From NCBI GenBank assembly GCA_963921795.1, contig OY997652.1, positions 58,454,919-58,518,918 of the forward strand: a stretch of DNA of 64,000 nt, read 5' to 3'. Of this stretch, positions 1,335 to 57,240 are shown piece after piece; position 1 is the first letter of the stretch, and each line of letters starts with the position of its first letter. The position numbers were made by a program, and so were the translations under genes. This stretch comes from Nannobrachium achirus. Its lineage: Eukaryota; Chordata; Actinopteri; Myctophiformes; Myctophidae. A model generated the notes under the pieces. It ran no database searches. It saw nothing but the letters and a program-made list of their open reading frames with translations, and had not been told where the DNA came from.

Positions 1335-1501
1335 CTGGAATGGGGACTGGACGATCCTCAGAGGGTGTTCATTATGAACCCCAGTGGACTGACAGGCTGA
1401 GCACAGGTCATAGTTAGGACACACTGTACACCAATACCTGGTCCCCACGATAGGATCTATCTCACAGCCGTCACAACACACACCAAGGTGGACGTTAGGA
1501 T
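1335..1501 (-). CDS. ZZ-type zinc-finger exon resembling SQSTM1/p62
   Basis: The acceptor GTTTCGTTTGCTAG precedes the exon and the donor is TTCCAG/GTCAGA. It encodes [19 protein letters not shown], then [20 protein letters not shown] and [16 protein letters not shown]. Three CxxC pairs and the final H..H are the ZZ zinc ligands, and NYDLC matches the DYDLC site with which human p62 reads N-terminal degrons. No PB1-domain exon was seen upstream in the 3.8 kb before the last TRPM exon. It may belong to an adjacent sqstm1-like gene, be a stray duplicated exon, or be spliced to the TRPM gene: the phase (two bases of a codon) fits exon 14 exactly. Confidence 0.78.
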
Positions 1502-3038
1502 CTAGCAAACGAAACAATAGAAATGTATTAGTATGAATTGTGTATAAAACTAGAACACATGCTTCCCGGAGCACAGGTCTGTACCAGGCCAGGTAGCTAA
1601 AACTGACCTCATTGACAATGTGGGTACTTTTGAATGGAGGTTCTTCCTTGGCCTACTGGGAGTGAGTGTTCACTTTTCCTCACCGATGGGTCCAGCAATG
1701 CCTGTTACATTATGTGCAAACATGCTCCTCCTGAACACTTTGTCAGATTTTCAAATGCCATTTAGTTTGACTCCGATTTACGACTACAATGATTTACAAC
1801 TACTTTCAGATACATCTTGATAACGTGACTTCAGGGATAATGTGTACCAATTAAGTAGAATTTTGGACAAAATTGGTAGGAGTAGCAAAAAAACTGTTAT
1901 GCAACGAACATGACGGTACACTTGTATTTCATCCTTGAACAGTGTTGTTTTTGTAGACGAAACGATGACGAATATCATTTTGTTGACGCACCTTTTTTTC
2001 ACGACAAAGACGTGGCGTTAACAAGCTAAAATGGGGGGCACGGTGACTAACATATTACGAGACCAATGTGTGTTTTCGTTGACGTGGCGGAGACGAGACG
2101 AACATCTGGTTTATTGGACGTTTTAACGTGCATGAAAAGCTGTCAAATATTATAAAGGCTGTTGCAATGGAGGGGTAGTGGCCAATCATATGGAACGTTC
2201 TAGGACGCATATAGCAACAGGCTCTGTGATTGGCTATATGTCGGCATGACTATACACACGTGTTGTTTGTTGTTGTCGGAAGCATATCAATTAATCATTT
2301 CAGTCGTCGGAAAAGAAGACACGATATGGATTTATTTTACAATCCAGGAAATAATGCAGGTTAACATCTGGCGCTAAGCTTCAGGCTAATGTTGGCTTGT
2401 TTAAGCAAACGTAAATTAATTGAATTGTTTGTTGTAAAGCATGGAAACTTTCTTTCGCTGGATGCGGAGAGAACGGTACGCGATAGCGAACGGTACTATA
2501 CCCACTAGTGACGTAGTGGTTTTGTTTTCGGTCAGCGGCGTCCGGCGTTGCGTATGGCTGTGACGTGTAAATCCTTGGAACTCAACAGCACTGCACGCGC
2601 GCGTGTATGCGTGCGTGTGTGTGATAAGTGCCAGTTTAGTGATACCATACGAAAAAAAGACATGCATACTTTATTCTTAGATAATATTACAATTGCCTCC
2701 TGTGTGAACTGTGCATATAAATAGGATGGGGCAGGTGTAACATTGTTATTAGCCTATACATCTATCCACAACTTCCCAACGTCCCATCGTGCATTGCGCA
2801 GAAGGCAGCTTCCGGCACCGCTACCGAGTGTGATCTACAAGCTCACAACGGCTGCATCTGCAATGCGAAGTGAGCTTGTATGTCTGCTGTTAACCGGAAG
2901 TGTCCCGCAAATGATGCTACAGTAAATTCTCTCGGAAACATGTGGATTGCTTTATGAATTCAATTGCACCTGTCAACTTTGATTCCAAAGTCTAATAGGC
3001 TACTTAATGAATTTATTTAAAGACACATTTTTCTTTTT
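1502..3038. other. Non-coding sequence with one palindrome
   Basis: No exon was recognised on either strand. Bases 2831-2890 hold another AGCTCACAA-type hairpin (ACAAGCTCACAA, then GTGAGCTTGT). The rest is unremarkable. Confidence 0.5.
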
Positions 3039-3206
3039 GACTAAAACTATTGACTAAAACTGGACTAAAACCTTTGTGTGGGTTCGTCGACTAAAACTAG
3101 ACTAAAACTATCAAGGATATAAATGACTAAAATGTGACTAAACCTAATAAGCATTTTGTCAAAAAGACTAAGACTAAATCTAAACTGCCTGCCAAAAACA
3201 ACACTG
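3039..3206. mobile_element. Right end of a second GACTAAA-rich hAT element
   Basis: GACTAAAAC-type repeats end in CCAAAAACAACACTG, the complement of the CAGTGTT terminus seen at base 80. No left end was found, so this is a truncated copy. Confidence 0.6.
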
Positions 3207-3459
3207 TCCATGAACCAGTTGGAATGTGCGTACAAAGTTTGATGGATATATCGGATATTGCGTTCATGATTTGAAGCAATTATGGGGGGACGGGGGGTTG
3301 AAGTCACCCTCTAAAGTCAGATGTGTCCCCCTCAAAACGTATCTAGGAGTCATTTGTAATAAGTCTTTCTACCACTTTTTCTAGTCACGTGTTCAAATAC
3401 TGGATTGTGATTGGCTTAAAACAGTAGTAAATCAGGCAACAATACTCGTCTGTGTGAAA

Positions 3460-3529
3460 TACCCGGATGCGTTGTCATGCTAATGAGGCACATTTCAGAG
3501 ATCAATGCGCCTCACAACGCATCCGGGTA
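3460..3529. repeat. Short palindrome (ACCCGGATGCGTTGT)
   Basis: TACCCGGATGCGTTGT at the left pairs perfectly with ACAACGCATCCGGGTA at the right, separated by about 38 bases. It looks like a small hairpin MITE. Confidence 0.7.
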
Positions 3530-3953
3530 CTTTCAGTCGGAACACCTTTCCCCAACCAACAATGACGTAGGTCCATGGTCGCAGGCGTCCTATGTTTACT
3601 AGTGAACGTACTATCGTCGCCGATTTATTCCATTGGATCCAATGCAATCCGCCAACTTTAAATACCCTTTTCTCTGAACCTATGCTTTTCTGGAAGCGAA
3701 CAGCCTCTATTTACGGCCGAAACTGTGCTTCTAACTAGTGCTTAGCTGTAAGCTAGACATGCACCACAGTATGGACCAGAGATAGCACCTCAAGGAGTTG
3801 GCGCCATCTGGTGGTGACTAGAAAATGTTGTGTTTATGGGACTATTTGCTGTGGTGGCGGAAGTTTGTGTATTCTGAAAATATTAATGATTGTAACTAAA
3901 GATCCTTGCAAGTTACAACCGTGTTTTCTTTCATTTATATGTAAAAAGTGGTA

Positions 3954-4104
3954 GAAAAGCAATTTACCATTCAAGGTCGTGGGTTGTTGTCTGATATACC
4001 TCTGTTTCAGGGTTGTTTGCCACTCGCCTGGCGGCTCGTGGCACAACCCTGAAACAGTGGTAAATCAGACAACAACCCACTCCCTCTCATGGTAAATGGC
4101 TTAC
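3954..4104. mobile_element. Hairpin MITE with 38-bp arms
   Basis: The arms at 3979-4016 and 4043-4080 (starting GTGGGTTGTTGTCTGAT) are nearly perfect inverted repeats. Imperfect outer arms carry TTTACCAT and ATGGTAAA. No coding content. Confidence 0.75.
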
Positions 4105-4235
4105 TTTCCACACAAACACAAAGCTTTTTGAATGATTTATAGTCTCAGTAGAGGTGCACGGATGATGGTTTTAGCTGCGGTTGCCACGGTTAACCTCCAT
4201 TCGGGCGGATTTGGGTCAATCAAATATAATTATTA

Positions 4236-4523
4236 ATTAAAGGAGTGGTGACACCGGCCGAAATTTAACATTATGGTACAGTAGGTCACGTGGTCTTTGT
4301 TGAAACGGTTTGGAAAGGGGGTGGAGCCGGCTGTTGCTGCCGACAGGCCCTTCAACATGTATGGGCCTGTCGGCAGCAACACAGAGCCCCCATTGATAGG
4401 CTGTTGATTGTACTGCATCATTTGATTGGATAATTTAACATGGGGGTACATGACATCATTAAAAAAAATTGCTAATTTGATAGCCATAATTAGCTGTTTT
4501 GGCCGTGTCACGCCCCCTTTAAT
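4236..4523. mobile_element. MITE with GGAGTGGTGACAC termini and an internal hairpin
   Basis: Left end TTAAAGGAGTGGTGACAC and right end GTGTCACGCCCCCTTTAA are inverted repeats. A second, perfect 19-bp inverted repeat lies inside at 4332-4350 and 4363-4381 (TGTTGCTGCCGACAGGCCC). Confidence 0.75.
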
Positions 4524-4734
4524 ATTGGATAACCGCAGAGGAAATGTGTAACGTAACGTTGTTCTTCATGAGGCAATATCCATGATTAAACTTACAGCTG
4601 TGTCCACTTAAAGCGGCATCAGCATGCCTTGCGCTGGTTGCACCTTGCCAAACCGTGCTAAAAAGTTAAACCCCACATAGCTCCATTGCGTCGGTAACAG
4701 TTAACTTCTCGCTAGCAAGCTGTGTGTGTCCATT

Positions 4735-4803
4735 TCTCTCTCTCTTTTCTCTCGCTCTCTCTGCCTCGCGTCTGTCTCTATCTGTGTGTGTGTGTGTGTG
4801 TGT

Positions 4804-4840
<37 letters not shown>

Positions 4841-4846
4841 GCGCGT
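4735..4846. repeat. (CT)n then (GT)n microsatellite
   Basis: A pyrimidine-rich CTCT stretch is followed by about 60 bp of GT repeats with few interruptions. Apparent reading frames here are repeat artefacts. Confidence 0.95.
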
Positions 4847-5318
4847 ACCTGCCTGCGTGCATGCCTGCCTGCCACCTCCTGCCCATTCACGTCTGTCTTT
4901 TGTGTGAGAAGTAAAGTGGCTACAGTACAAGTACAATACAAGTACAGTACAAGTAGCCTAGGCTTAGTTGACAACTAGTGTTTACTGCTGCTTATAGAAT
5001 TCTATTGCATAGGTTAGGTGCGGCCCCTCCGCCTGTACCACACCCTCTAGATTTATAGATTTAATCGACCCGTCTCTCAATCAAATCAAATTAGGTACAT
5101 TATCATGAAAAATTTAAAATCCTCAAGAACGACTAATTATTTGTTCATCATTGTAAACCTGTGTGTGCATTCATGAATTCATACATACGGGTGCTCACAA
5201 TAAAAGACTGTTAGCAATCATTCTCCTTTGTTCAAAACTTACACAGTGATCAAATCACACAATAAGCTAAAGATAAAATGTTTTATTCTGTTGTATTTGA
5301 TCCAAATCAAGTACTGAC

Positions 5319-5506
5319 CATTTGTAGAATCCCTGAGAGGCTCCTTCTGGAATTTCTTCTCCAAAAAAGAGATGAAGATTTGAAGGTGGGAGAGGATGAT
5401 GAAAGGAGGAGCCAAAGCAGGATGGGCCTGGTACTCTACGATGAGGTTGTACCACTGGAACATCCAATAGTGGTTGCTCTTCTCCTGCACCTTTTCAAAG
5501 GTGTTG
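5319..5506 (-). CDS. trpm4-like: TRPM4/5-like channel, exon 14 (TRP helix), last typical TRPM exon seen
   Basis: The acceptor CTCCATGCAG is followed by NTFEKVQEKSNHYWMFQWYN, LIVEYQAHPALAPPFIILSH and LQIFISFLEKKFQKEPLRDS with TN. It matches TRPM4 from YTFGKVQGNS through PALAPPFIVISHL, that is, the TRP helix and the start of the cytoplasmic C-terminus. The donor is AAATG/GTCAGT, ending one base into a codon. No further TRPM-type exon (KEN.L motif, coiled coil) was recognised between here and base 1. Confidence 0.95.
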
Positions 5507-8939: not shown

Positions 8940-9072
8940 TTGCCTCCATATACACTGCCATTGGTCTCCAGATCAACATAAAGAGTGCACTCCCCAGCCA
9001 AACACGCCAATCTTCACTCTGGACGGGCATCCATTAGCCACCGTCCCTCACTTCACCTACCTTGGGAGCACT

Positions 9073-9719
9073 TTGTCTTCATCCTGTACCATAGACGACA
9101 TCCAGGCTCGAATTGGCCTGGCTTCTGCTGCCTTTGGAAGGCTAAGGTCCAGGGTCTTCCAAAACAGGAACCTCACCATCTCCACCAAGGCTGCTGTGTA
9201 CAAGGCAGTTTGCCTCTCCACGCTGCTCTATGGTTCGGAAACCTGGACACCCTACCAGAGGCACATCCACAGTCTAGAGGCCTTCCACATCCGTTGCCTC
9301 CATATGATCCTGGGTTTGACTTGGGAAGACAGGGTGCCCTACGTTGAAATGTATGACCGTATGCCAGCCCACTGTCTACCCCGACAGATCATGTATGGCC
9401 AGCTACTAGTTAGTCAAAGGTCTGCTGGGGGCCAGAAAAAGCGGTACAAGGACCATATCAAAACCCTCCTGAAGAAGTGTGACATTAAACCACCAACCCT
9501 CGAGTCCCTGGCTGTTGATCGCCACACTTGGAGCGCTACCTGTCATCAGGGAGTCACTCGAGGAGAGTACAGCGACGTGCACAGACGCACCAACGTGCCT
9601 CAGCACCACCAACCACCACAGCTGCCTTCCCCTGCTCCTCCTGTGACAAAGTCTGCGGATCACGCATCGGTCTGAGCAGCCACCTGGCCATGCACAGACG
9701 AAAGGCACAACCACAATAA
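9073..9719 (+). pseudogene. LINE ORF2 C-terminal region with C2H2-type finger
   Basis: The post-RT region reads STLLYGSETWTPYQRHI and continues to KRYKDHIKTLLKKCDI. In another frame the end encodes CSSCDKVCGSRIGLSSHL with AMHRRK, a Cys2His2 finger typical of the C-terminus of some LINEs. A frameshift near 9540 separates the parts. Confidence 0.85.
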
Positions 9720-15082: not shown

Positions 15083-15251
15083 GTGAGCATGGCGATGAGC
15101 AGGTTGATGAGCAGTATGATGGTGACCAGCAGGAAAACCACCAGCAGAATGATCACCAGACAGTTACTCAGCCAGTACTTGTTCCTGCATGGCTCAGCAC
15201 CGCCCTCTATCTCTGTCACGTTGGAAGTGCACTTGTCGGCCATGTCCCAAT
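15083..15251 (-). CDS. trpm4-like: TRPM4/5-like channel, exon 13 (outer pore loop and S6)
   Basis: The acceptor is AGTGGGATTAG and the donor CTCAC/GTAGGT. The outer loop reads DWDMADKCTSNVTEIEGG followed by AEPCRNKY. It has an N-glycosylation sequon (NVT) and two cysteines, as in the TRPM4/5 outer loop. S6 reads WLSNCLVIILLVVFLLVTI then ILLINLLIAMLT, the family's LLNLLIAMF pattern. A (CAGA)n tract lies 26 bases past the donor. Confidence 0.96.
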
Positions 15252-15534: not shown

Positions 15535-15808
<274 letters not shown>

Positions 15809-17057: not shown

Positions 17058-17190
17058 CATCTTGCCAACAATGATGATTTTTGGTCCCATCTGTTTGTGA
17101 ACAGCGAAGATGTGAATGAGACGGAGTGTGAAGACCATGTAGTCAATACACAGGACACATCGTCCAAACGCATAGGCCCACTCAAACATC
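17058..17190 (-). CDS. trpm4-like: TRPM4/5-like channel, exon 11 (S4 and S4-S5 linker)
   Basis: The acceptor GTGTGCTTCAG completes an Arg codon, and the donor is AAGATG/GTAAGA. It encodes [20 protein letters not shown] and [20 protein letters not shown] with VGKM. This is near-identical in pattern to TRPM4 [20 protein letters not shown] and to TRPM5. It is the strongest family match in the window. Confidence 0.97.
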
Positions 17191-28718: not shown

Positions 28719-28834
28719 CTGCTGATGAGACCAAGAATGAACAGAAGGATGGCAGCGAGGTCATAATAGTTCCAGACATCCTTCATGTACAGCTTCATCC
28801 TCTGGCTTAAAGTCATGTCACCCATGAAGAACAC
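28719..28834 (-). CDS. trpm4-like: TRPM4/5-like channel, exon 10 (S3)
   Basis: The acceptor is GAACTTTCAG and the donor AGCAG/GTTGGT. It encodes VFFMGDMTLSQRMKLYMKD, then VWNYYDLAAILLFILGLISR. The S3 residues Asn and Asp in WN..D match the Ca2+-coordinating pair of TRPM4/5. A Helitron-like element end begins about 20 bases upstream of the acceptor, and the tail of a LINE/SINE cluster sits about 60-80 bases past the donor, so the exon is closely boxed in by repeats. Confidence 0.93.
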
Positions 28835-29874: not shown

Positions 29875-30103
29875 CTCGTAGATCTCCTCACATAAGAAGG
29901 TGAACACCCAGAAGTACAGCACATATTCACTGATGGACGGCCCACTAGGGGGCGGTGGCTTAAAGTCCACCAGCAGCACGTAGGCAAACAGGAAGAGGAA
30001 GAGGATGTACATCACTGCATTTCCCACAAAGGAGGTGACGGGAGCTCTCCAGAACATACGCCATCTTCCTTTGAACGGCTTTGACTTCTCCTTTTCATCT
30101 TCC
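29875..30103 (-). CDS. trpm4-like: TRPM4/5-like channel, exon 9 (S1 and S2)
   Basis: The acceptor CACCTTGCAG opens a 229-bp exon ending at GAG/GTGAGT. A short charged linker ([14 protein letters not shown]) leads into S1, [19 protein letters not shown] through YVLLVDF. A proline-rich loop PPPPSGPS follows, and then S2, [18 protein letters not shown]. In TRPM4/5 the S2 end reads CEELRQ or EEIRQ, where the Glu and Gln bind the activating cytosolic Ca2+. Here the Glu is kept and the Gln position is Glu. The linker is far shorter than the roughly 70 residues of human TRPM4. Confidence 0.95.
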
Positions 30104-30255: not shown

Positions 30256-30353
30256 CTGTAGGAGATGAAGTTGGTGAAGCAGAGTGGGAAGCAGAAAAGG
30301 CCAAGAAGGACTTTCCACACTGATGTGTCCTTCTTCATGTCACCCCACCAAGC
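30256..30353 (-). CDS. trpm4-like: TRPM4/5-like channel, exon 8 (WWGDM and pre-S1)
   Basis: The acceptor is TCTGTCTCAG and the donor TACAG/GTTAGA. The exon encodes AWWGDMKKDTSVWKVLLGLF and CFPLCFTNFISYR. WWGDM and the following hydrophobic stretch are characteristic of TRPM4/5 just ahead of S1 (human TRPM4 KWWGDM, then an apolar helix). The exon ends two bases into an Arg codon that exon 9 completes. Confidence 0.92.
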
Positions 30354-31272
30354 CTGAGACAGAGTGGACTGAGAAGCAGAAACTGTCTGTTTTAGCTGGC
30401 AGTAGGGTCATGAGTTCATGAGTTAATAACATATACTAGAAAAAAGCCCCCTGCGGGGGCCTGGCCCCTTATGTAAAAGTCCCCTGTACTCAAGAGATGG
30501 ATACAGTCCAGAGGGCAGCTAAGCAATACAAATGTAGGATAGCTCAACATTAAATATGCAGTTTGTTCCAAAATGCAAAATGGTGTAAAATGTTGAGTCT
30601 GTAAGATATAATAGTTTCAGAAATACAAACCCCTCAGGTACAGGGTGGCCTGCTCTGTTTTGGCTGGGTGGGTTATAATAAGATAGAAAAAAAGCACCCC
30701 TGGGGCGTTTGTTTAGGTGGCATGGGATGTGTAGTGTAGTAGGAAAGGCAAAGTTAAATATTATGTTGAAATAAAGTGTACAATGGTAGGCCTACTGTTG
30801 AATAGTTTTTTTTTTTAATTATGAAGTTGTTGTAGAACATGGAATGATTTTGGCATTGGTAGCCTAATACTTTTGTGCTTTTACTCAAGTAACGCATTCG
30901 AACACACACATGTTACTTGTAACAGAGTACTTTTACCTAAGTAGAAACATTTCAGTACTTTTCCACTCGCAGCGTCGACGGACATTGCCGTTGGTGTTAT
31001 ACACCAAATCGTGACCTATAGAAAACGGTGCCTGCGATGTTTTGATGTTTTAAATAATGTTTATGTCATTTCTACACAGATGTAGTTTGTTTTAGGTAAT
31101 TTCTACACACGTTGTTGTTCATAGCTTAAGAGGATAGGATCGAGTAGGGCATGGGAGGGAGAGTACTTTTACCTAAGTAAAAACATTTGAGTAGTTTTGC
31201 AACTCAGCATCCACGGATGTTGCTGTTATACTCCGAATCAGCCGCCCCTCTCCCTCTCAAAGCCGTTCTGAG
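30354..31272 (-). other. Start of TRPM intron 7
   Basis: It contains GCCCCCTGCGGGGGC, a GC hairpin, at 30447-30461, and ACTTTTACTC-type fragments of the 19177 hAT family from about 30830 to 31200. Nothing coding. Confidence 0.5.
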
Positions 31273-35196: not shown

Positions 35197-35339
35197 CTCT
35201 AATCCTTCATGTTTGAAGAAGCTGTGTGATTCAACAGCTATGCCCATTTGGAAGCAGTTCATGTCCCAGACTGGAGACTTTCTGTTGAGCAGCTTGAAGG
35301 AGTCACTCTCATCAGTCTGGTAACACGTGTCCAATATAC
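35197..35339 (-). CDS. trpm4-like: TRPM4/5-like channel, exon 7
   Basis: The acceptor CTAAACTCAG is followed by GT, which completes a Gly codon. The exon encodes ILDTCYQTDESDSFKLLNRK, SPVWDMNCFQMGIAVESHSF and FKHEGLE. It aligns with the TRPM4 segment [22 protein letters not shown] through ARAFFAQDG. The proposed donor GAG/GTTGGT is weak but keeps phase 0 with exon 8. Joining the two leaves about five residues fewer than TRPM4 before the WWGDM motif, so the true 3' end of this exon is less certain than its start. Confidence 0.82.
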
Positions 35340-35547: not shown

Positions 35548-35683
35548 CATGTGCCCTGTCCTCAAACTTCTGTGTCAGCTTTTCCATGGAAAGTTTGGTG
35601 TCTGTCCGAATTTCCAACTTTGACTTTGACATCTCTTTAATCATCTTACAGGCACCCAGTGCATTCAGCACTGGCTCCTCTGC
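35548..35683 (-). CDS. trpm4-like: TRPM4/5-like channel, exon 6 (ALGAC motif)
   Basis: The phase-consistent acceptor is CTCTCCCAG, and the exon begins GCA GAG GAG. It encodes AEEPVLNALGACKMIKEMSK and then SKLEIRTDTKLSMEKLTQKF with EDRAHG. The ALGACLLLRVMA segment of TRPM4 is clearly recognisable. The donor is CATG/GTGAGA, phase 1, which fits exon 7. Confidence 0.9.
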
Positions 35684-49814: not shown

Positions 49815-50137
49815 CTGTCTTTATCGCCTGTCTGAACACCAGTCCAAGATTGAAGACTCACCTTTTCAGACTCCACCTAAACCCTTAGCACTACCAAAAA
49901 AAAAAAATCAATGACCATACATGAAGCTAGTTAGCATTTGTTTTTAGGTTTTTAGAACCTTTTTGTTCTTTACTGATTATATTGTGTTTTTTCTAGATAG
50001 CTATTCATTTGCATTTGTTATACTGCTGTTGATGTACTGACATATTATCTTGTTTATTATTGTGCTGTTTTATCTGCTTAATGTAAGTCGCTTTGGATTA
50101 AAAGCGTCTGCTAAATGCCTAAACTGTAAACTGTACA
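49815..50137 (+). pseudogene. LINE C-terminus and 3' tail, right half
   Basis: LNTSPRLKTHLFRLHLNP and a stop complete the frame left at 38178. The 3' UTR CAATGACCATACATGAAGCT through GCGTCTGCTAAATGCC matches 33890-34107. The tail is TAAACTG repeats. Confidence 0.85.
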
Positions 50138-54242: not shown

Positions 54243-54368
54243 CTTCTCCCAGAGGACGGCAGCCATGTCACTGTAGTTCTGTAGGACAGCCCAGATGAAG
54301 AGATGAGTCCAGGGGGATTCACAGAGCTGGTTCCTGTATTCTCCATCCAGACCTTGCTTTCTGACATG
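54243..54368 (-). CDS. trpm4-like: TRPM4/5-like channel, exon 5
   Basis: This 42-codon phase 0-0 exon has acceptor TCTCCTCAG and donor GAGAAG/GTAAAA. It encodes HVRKQGLDGEYRNQLCESPW and then THLFIWAVLQNYSDMAAVLW with EK at the end. This matches the TRPM signature W..L..WA.L.....MA...WE (human TRPM4 [23 protein letters not shown]). The following intron is 18.6 kb and holds the nested LINE complex. Confidence 0.9.
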
Positions 54369-54789: not shown

Positions 54790-54888
54790 CTCCAGAGCCT
54801 TCTTGCCAGAGGTGAAGTCTTCTAGACCCAGAGCAGTGAAGTAGAACGGCTTCTCTTCACCCATGAACTTCTTCAAGACACCTGACAC
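54790..54888 (-). CDS. trpm4-like: TRPM4/5-like channel, exon 4
   Basis: This 33-codon, phase 0-0 exon has acceptor GTCTCTCCAG and donor CTGGAG/GTATTC. It encodes VSGVLKKFMGEEKPFYF followed by TALGLEDFTSGKKALE. Its first part aligns with the TRPM4 region HVLRMLLGKM, the rest with a poorly conserved linker. It was found from its splice sites and flanking exons. Confidence 0.82.
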
Positions 54889-55235: not shown

Positions 55236-55472
55236 CTCAAACAGGCTGATCTCTTTCAGAGAGTCAAGGTCTGAGTTTCCCAGTCTCTCCTTCAGTTGCT
55301 CCAGTAGCAGCTTGTAGAGCAGTGTGTCTTCATCCACTCTGCTGTAGAGTTCCTCCAGGAGGCCATAAGTCAGGTATTCCTCGAAGTTGAACTTCTTCTC
55401 AATGAACAGACGTACAAACGGTGTCTTGTCATTGGTCAGTGCGAACGCCATGCAGTCCTTCAGAGCTTCATC
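55236..55472 (-). CDS. trpm4-like: TRPM4/5-like channel, exon 3 (ankyrin-like region)
   Basis: This phase 0-0 exon of 79 codons has acceptor GTCCAACAG and donor TTTGAG/GTGAGT. It encodes DEALKDCMAFALTNDKTPF, then VRLFIEKKFNFEEYLTYG and a leucine-rich stretch ending in LKEISLFE. It corresponds to the TRPM4 segment [20 protein letters not shown], which forms helical repeats in the cytoplasmic TRPM homology region. Reading frame, splice sites and family match all agree. Confidence 0.9.
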
Positions 55473-55700: not shown

Positions 55701-55782
55701 CGTCCAGTCGATGTCATCATTGAAGAGCTGACTGCTGGCAAAGTCCACTCTGTTCCATCTCAGTGATAGAATCAGCTCCTTA
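55701..55782 (-). CDS. trpm4-like: TRPM4/5-like channel, exon 2 (WNRVD motif)
   Basis: The acceptor CCCTTACAG precedes the exon and the donor is GACG/GTGAGA. It encodes KELILSLRWNRVDFASSQLF and then NDDIDWT. The motif AWNRVDIA is a hallmark of TRPM proteins, and here it reads RWNRVDFA. The exon starts with one base of a codon and ends in phase 0. Exon 1 ends with one base rather than the two needed here, so a short exon of about 31 or 34 bases probably lies between them (about 11 residues are also missing by comparison with TRPM4). A sense-strand (GT)n(GCGT)n tract of 212 bp ends 46 bases upstream. Confidence 0.88.
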
Positions 55783-55828
55783 CTGTAAGGGAAAGCATTA
55801 CCTGATGCACGCTGCTTACTGGCTGTAA

Positions 55829-57091: not shown

Positions 57092-57240
57092 CTGGCATCA
57101 GGGCTTTGATGATGACTGTATCAAAGTCTTCTGGTCCGTCCTTCTCTTCATGGTAGAATGTTATCAACTTCCTGTTATGGTAGATGCTCTGAACCTGGGG
57201 GTCAAGGTCAAAGGTCAAATCATGAGCAAATTGTTCATTT
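57092..57240 (-). CDS. trpm4-like: TRPM4/5-like channel, exon 1 of those visible (end of N-terminal homology region)
   Basis: The exon follows an acceptor TTCTGTTTTGCAG and ends at the donor CCAG/GTACAA. Translation gives NEQFAHDLTFDLDPQ followed by FYHEEKDGPEDFDTVIIKAL. The DG.E.F.T.I.KAL pattern is the one that closes the N-terminal homology region of TRPM4/5 (human TRPM4 has DGSEEFETIVLKAL). It begins with the last base of a codon and ends one base into a codon. Thirty bases upstream of the exon, on the sense strand, is a (GT)n tract. Exons further 5' are needed for the SLOG-type domain and were not found in the remaining 6.7 kb. Confidence 0.85.

Follow-up and report, generated by a model that had tools for sequence, protein, structure and literature searches.

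Several TRPM channels carry an extra cytoplasmic domain, NUDT9H in TRPM2 and a kinase in TRPM6/7, as set out in an account of TRPM evolution (PMC13143021) in whose main text the terms zinc, ZZ-type, sequestosome and SQSTM1 have 0 occurrences. The ZZ zinc finger of SQSTM1/p62 is described as binding N-terminal arginine via D129, N132, R139, D147 and D149 together with the backbone of I127 (PMC6197226). No report combining TRPM with a ZZ domain or zinc finger was found in searches of an open-access library that joined the two. Here we describe a stretch of 64,000 nucleotides from the myctophid fish Nannobrachium achirus (assembly GCA_963921795.1, contig OY997652.1, positions 58,454,919 to 58,518,918; hereafter the window), whose minus strand carries a TRPM4/5-like gene. 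Judged from the DNA, and with a probability that we put at about 0.87, this gene has an SQSTM1-type ZZ exon between its TRP-helix and coiled-coil exons. In TRPM2 and TRPM6/7 the extra domain is C-terminal and enzyme-related, whereas the window gene would hold a small zinc finger ahead of the coiled coil.

Fifteen exons of the window gene, 14 of TRPM type and the ZZ exon, were located by homology, by eye or by splice sites from 57240 down to 1335 on the minus strand, and joined they form 760 codons with 0 stops. Pfam detected three domains in this frame: the TRPM2-like domain of MHR3/4 (PF25508), complete at positions 1–257 of 257 with E 1.7e-65, the six-transmembrane ion-transport domain (PF00520, E 4.9e-16), and ZZ. 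The best PDB E-values were 2.9e-175 for TRPM5, 1.1e-153 for TRPM4, 4.8e-132 for TRPM2 and 3e-104 for TRPM8, and the alignment to TRPM5 (7mbp, which we take to be the zebrafish protein) spans the MHRs through the TRP helix. The TRP-helix exon (5319–5506, minus strand) likewise had its best PDB matches in TRPM5 (E 1.6e-13). By these E-values, not by a tree, the window gene is nearer TRPM4/5 than TRPM2/8. It has in common with TRPM5 and TRPM4 the MHR3/4, the six transmembrane segments, the TRP helix and a coiled-coil tail exon with WETxQKxNFL; it differs from them in the ZZ between TRP helix and coiled coil, in a pore motif FGD against the FGQ of 7mbp, and in having many paralogues.

The ZZ exon (1335–1501, minus strand, 167 nt) matched Pfam ZZ (PF00569) with E 4e-14 and 52.6 bits, against a gathering score of 21.4, and in the PDB ranking SQSTM1 came first (E 1.1e-15) and HERC2 second (7.5e-11). 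All 8 Cys/His zinc ligands are kept. These ligands are common to the p62 ZZ (7r1o), with which 29 of 51 aligned residues are identical; the window ZZ differs from it by a one-residue insertion and by lying inside an ion-channel gene. Within the p62 pocket for N-terminal arginine, D129, R139 and D149 are kept, while I127, a backbone contact, is replaced by C, N132 by E and D147 by N. An AlphaFold model of the isolated exon reached a predicted local distance difference test (pLDDT) score of 45.7 and a predicted template modelling (pTM) score of 0.20 and was discarded. In viral contigs, scanned with both the ZZ exon and the TRP exon, no relatives were found.

The original prediction had noted that the TRP exon ends one base into a codon and that the ZZ exon opens with exactly the two bases needed; the exon phases confirmed both, and the TRP–ZZ join is in frame. 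On the TRP side alone this match says little, human SQSTM1 intron 2 being in phase 1 as well (c.301+2T>A is assigned to intron 2 in PMC9361805). A channel ending in the ZZ finger had also been proposed. Its first half, an SQSTM1-like ZZ exon in a TRPM4/5-like gene, held up, but the finger is not terminal. When 30 kb to the left of the window were read, a TRPM-type coiled-coil tail exon of 89 nt, EWETKQKQNFLTAQTERSSDSERIKQISD, was found on the same strand at −214 to −302, followed by more coiled-coil exons, which gives the exon order TRP helix, ZZ, coiled coil. Within the window, as had been stated, searches returned no coiled-coil tail between the TRP and ZZ exons. The tail was not seen in the window because the window ends before it, and its absence there was of little weight, given that, among the 13 introns that precede the TRP exon, 3 exceed the 5.3 kb that remained.

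The phases of the three exons fit on both sides of the finger. The TRP donor is in phase 1, the ZZ exon runs from phase 1 to 0, and the coiled-coil acceptor is in phase 0. The frame from TRP through ZZ to coiled coil is open, whereas TRP spliced straight to coiled coil meets a stop after 19 codons. With the donor in phase 1 and the tail acceptor in phase 0, the ZZ exon is thus needed to reach the coiled coil in frame, and in the window gene a transcript that omits ZZ but retains the coiled coil would have its frame shifted. A small further exon may conceivably do the same frame-keeping job. Splice sites were scored with a small matrix built from the window gene's own exons, by which the ZZ donor is strong, being equalled or surpassed by 0.3% of 3953 GT sites; a T-rich tract is present at the acceptor by eye. 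We also considered the ZZ exon as a terminal one, as its frame meets a stop shortly after the donor and there is an AATAAA at 1122. We rejected this: AATAAA has a density of 1.27 per kb on that strand, the donor is strong and there is a next exon that fits.

The same arrangement recurs in the 1.66-Gb assembly, for which all match counts are lower bounds. The tail exon had at least 33 matches. For 32 of them a same-strand TRP exon lies no more than 25 kb upstream, and in 9 of these 32 pairs a ZZ lies between the TRP and coiled-coil exons, again on the same strand. The open frames around the tail match were 29–43 codons long in the 9 pairs with ZZ versus 42–104 in the 23 without (Mann–Whitney p 9e-6), as expected if the tail exon has been shortened at its 5′ side in ZZ genes. 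The coiled-coil acceptor was in phase 0 in all six ZZ genes read, whereas a phase-1 acceptor fitting the TRP donor directly was available in all four genes read without ZZ; these four came from six loci, the other two showing no tail exon within the 3 kb retrieved. The first donor motif past the TRP exon was in phase 1 at 10 of 10 loci, with and without ZZ. At six loci the ZZ exon measured 167, 170, 173, 173, 167 and 320 nt (the last a double ZZ), and every length leaves 2 on division by 3. It is the two-sided phase match and the recurrence at other loci that carry the weight.

On their predicted splice phases, the ZZ and non-ZZ loci are before-and-after evidence for insertion of the ZZ exon. 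An SQSTM1-type ZZ exon with some flanking intron would have been inserted between the TRP-helix and coiled-coil exons; in carriers the coiled-coil exon would start later, in phase 0, and inclusion of ZZ would then keep the frame from the TRP exon. These relatives would be a case of exon shuffling in which the splice phases can still be read both with and without the insert. At one locus (L019:4677–4997) a single open stretch of a TRPM gene contains two joined ZZ units, and L047 and L050 have similar doubles. At L009, a coiled-coil exon after the tail occurs in two near-identical copies (4178–4279 and 8975–9076; 97% and 100% to the query) beside CA/GT repeats.

Both exons are abundant in the genome. 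The TRP exon had at least 55 matches, none with a stop and several each on contigs C18, C9, C12 and C1, the weakest of which are probably ordinary TRPM genes; as gauged by these matches, the TRPM4/5-like family in this genome is very large. Atlantic salmon is credited with 16 TRPM members after its extra genome duplication (PMC13143021), a number far exceeded by the TRP-exon matches here. In open-access literature on TRPM4 expansion, no paper on fish TRPM4 was found by title. The ZZ exon had at least 94 protein matches, 92 of them without a stop. We kept 83 as the same family and dropped the 11 weakest, several of which are probably ordinary ZZ proteins and one of which is a fragment with a stop; the other stop-containing match (C4:1004437) is among the 83.

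Several observations weigh against the proposed architecture. All phases are those of splice sites predicted from genomic DNA; the ZZ acceptor is moderate, with 14% of 3897 AG sites scoring equally high, and locus L056 also offers two phase-2 acceptors. A ZZ lies within 25 kb downstream of only 9 of the 55 TRP-exon matches. A DNA search gave 40 ZZ places; for 25 of these there is no TRP match within 150 kb, and for 17 there is none anywhere on the contig (for example C17 and C24), suggesting that the ZZ exon also lives outside these TRPM genes. The SLOG (MHR1/2) exons of the window gene were not found at 57–84 kb with five exon queries from a paralogue on contig C7, in which they occur (best E 0.045). 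The function, finally, is argued from resemblance to p62, with two pocket side chains differing (N132 and D147).

The 25 places without a nearby TRP match, and a phase-1 start equal to that of human SQSTM1 exon 3, would suit a ZZ exon that is part of a separate p62-like or KCMF1-like gene, either starting in the TRP–ZZ gap or nested in a TRPM intron. We regard this as highly improbable. No PB1 was found before the ZZ, tblastn with human p62 matching only the ZZ in the TRP–ZZ gap and the 30 kb to the left; the 30 kb left of the window gave a TRPM tail and no PB1 match, and the absence of a p62 PB1 between the two exons stands as first described. The TRP–ZZ–tail order and strand also recur at nine loci, and the tail acceptor phase differs in the ZZ genes read. 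The neighbouring sqstm1-like gene that the original prediction had allowed for is made unlikely by this shared exon order.

Up to 150 kb from a TRP exon, ZZ copies at other distances are all on the same strand: a ZZ lies no more than 150 kb upstream of 14 TRP exons, 13 further pairs have the ZZ 25–150 kb downstream, and no opposite-strand pair was found within 150 kb. Since genes of this family stand next to one another in tandem, some of the pairs are to be ascribed to an adjacent gene; the ZZ upstream of C12:6570523, for instance, is the ZZ after C12:6636096. The gene at C18:3088928 has one ZZ past its TRP exon and four ZZ 37–44 kb upstream. On contig C7 (L027:40–168, L061; C7:67747423) a ZZ of the same family comes first; after it, in the same orientation, come an N-terminal exon of TRPM4 type, exons for SLOG and MHR and, 24 kb further on, the TRP exon. 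By this exon order, ZZ occupies a second site, before the TRPM N-terminus, at one locus. Twelve ZZ loci of 10 kb (L014, L015, L017, L020–L028) gave no match to seven TRPM exon queries at E 1e-3, and in one of them, L027, the TRPM N-terminal exon was detected with another query. Sequence common to the 12 named no host gene among the matches listed. At L014, L017 and L028, open frames of acidic, repeat-like sequence (SDQEE..., GGDTREEN) are found no more than about 2.7 kb from ZZ copies without a nearby TRPM exon; these frames are possibly host-gene exons.

Most copies share flanking sequence. At 36 of 37 fetched ZZ loci, 20 of them fetched with only about 170 bases per side, the alignment extends at least 20 nt into the adjoining intron and in many for hundreds of bases, L036 being the exception; the exon therefore usually travelled with intron sequence, spreading by duplication or some other copying route. 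Two elements resembling miniature inverted-repeat transposable elements (MITEs) flank the ZZ in the window, with inverted ends at 80–94/815–829 and 1936–1953/3193–3210, and neither contains the exon. The second (1936–3210) lies in the TRP–ZZ intron, outside the gene product, has a target-site duplication by eye, and is presumably hAT-like.

Intron alignments of this kind, the scatter of ZZ copies over many contigs and an overall ratio of nonsynonymous to synonymous change (pN/pS) near 1 could mean that the ZZ, as a stray exon, was copied together with intron sequence in the manner of a mobile cassette and goes unused in most transcripts. The state of the copies makes this very unlikely. Stops occur in 2 of the 94 genome matches and in none of the 47 fetched copies of at least 40 codons, a set that leaves out one shorter fragment with a stop (L041, second unit). 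The six cysteines among the zinc ligands are present in 47 of 47 copies and the two histidines in 45 and 46. Across 23 disjoint pairs (46 of the 47 copies) pN/pS was 0.97 overall and 0.04 at the zinc ligands, and skipping the ZZ breaks the frame in the window gene.

Outside the ligands the finger changes fast. All pairs of the 47 copies gave a pN/pS of 0.99, and in the 23 disjoint pairs the values outside the ligands were 0.109 versus 0.087 (Fisher p 0.046). For the window ZZ against its nearest relatives we obtained dS 0.028, dN 0.142 (L012); 0.171 (L013); and 1.33 against all. The residue preceding the first ligand is of 12 types among 45 copies counted, and entropy is higher at the pocket sites published for p62 (permutation p 0.048). 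The pN/pS of 0.72 at these sites counts against diversifying selection, for which the evidence from these copies is suggestive only. The ratio of nonsynonymous to synonymous change did not differ significantly between the ZZ and TRP exons (0.97 vs 0.75, p 0.65; 14 TRP sequences in 7 pairs, with one gene present twice as L013 and L054). With no significant difference from the TRP exon, the fast change may characterise the family as a whole and does not prove that the finger is under selection.

For the function of the finger we tentatively prefer, by its resemblance to p62, a cytosolic recognition module that tunes the channel. Next to the gating helix, in the cytoplasm, the finger would bind a ligand or partner, and the protein N-terminus or partner bound there would tune a cation channel activated by Ca2+. 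Alternatively, its role may be in scaffolding, trafficking or the control of degradation. If the recognition reading is true, a small ligand-binding zinc finger so close to the TRP gating helix would link a cytosolic signal to the TRPM pore in a different manner. Close relatives with and without ZZ in one genome form a natural series for testing the effect of the domain. More speculatively, and in our estimate improbably, the large repertoire of TRPM4-like channels might use the intron-flanked ZZ cassette at its two sites as variable recognition modules, with a constant zinc core and a changing surface, each tuned to different cytosolic N-termini or partners.

The remaining exons of the window gene, all on the minus strand, begin with the most upstream recognised TRPM exon (57092–57240), an MHR exon (55701–55801), two MHR3 exons (55236–55472, within the Pfam TRPM2-like domain, and 54790–54888), an MHR3/4 exon (54243–54368, same domain) and the first and second MHR4 exons (35548–35683 and 35197–35339). 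They continue with the pre-S1 (30256–30368), S1–S2 (29875–30103), S2–S3 (28719–28834), S3–S4 (17058–17190), S5/pore-loop (15634–15808) and pore/S6 (15083–15251) exons. The lack of SLOG matches at 57–84 kb means that the N-terminus of the gene is far away or lost. If it is lost, the window gene could be a decaying, 5′-truncated copy that makes no channel, the architecture being real in its relatives, and the long, repeat-filled introns are in keeping with this. We think it rather unlikely, although a possibility to be taken seriously: the 760 codons over 14 TRPM exons and the ZZ have no stop, and with introns of up to 18.6 kb elsewhere in the gene the N-terminus may lie further right.

The FGD motif lies in the S5/pore-loop exon, at a position that we take to have a role in ion selectivity. 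In the S2 exons (29875–30103 and 28719–28834) the window gene has EEIYE where TRPM5 7mbp has EEIRQ, and the N and D of S3 are kept; these positions are presumably Ca2+-site residues. A tRNA search of the window found none. The sole Rfam match was a UnaL2 3′ element of a long interspersed nuclear element (LINE) at 50070–50124, and reverse-transcriptase-like open frames were seen by eye within the long introns.

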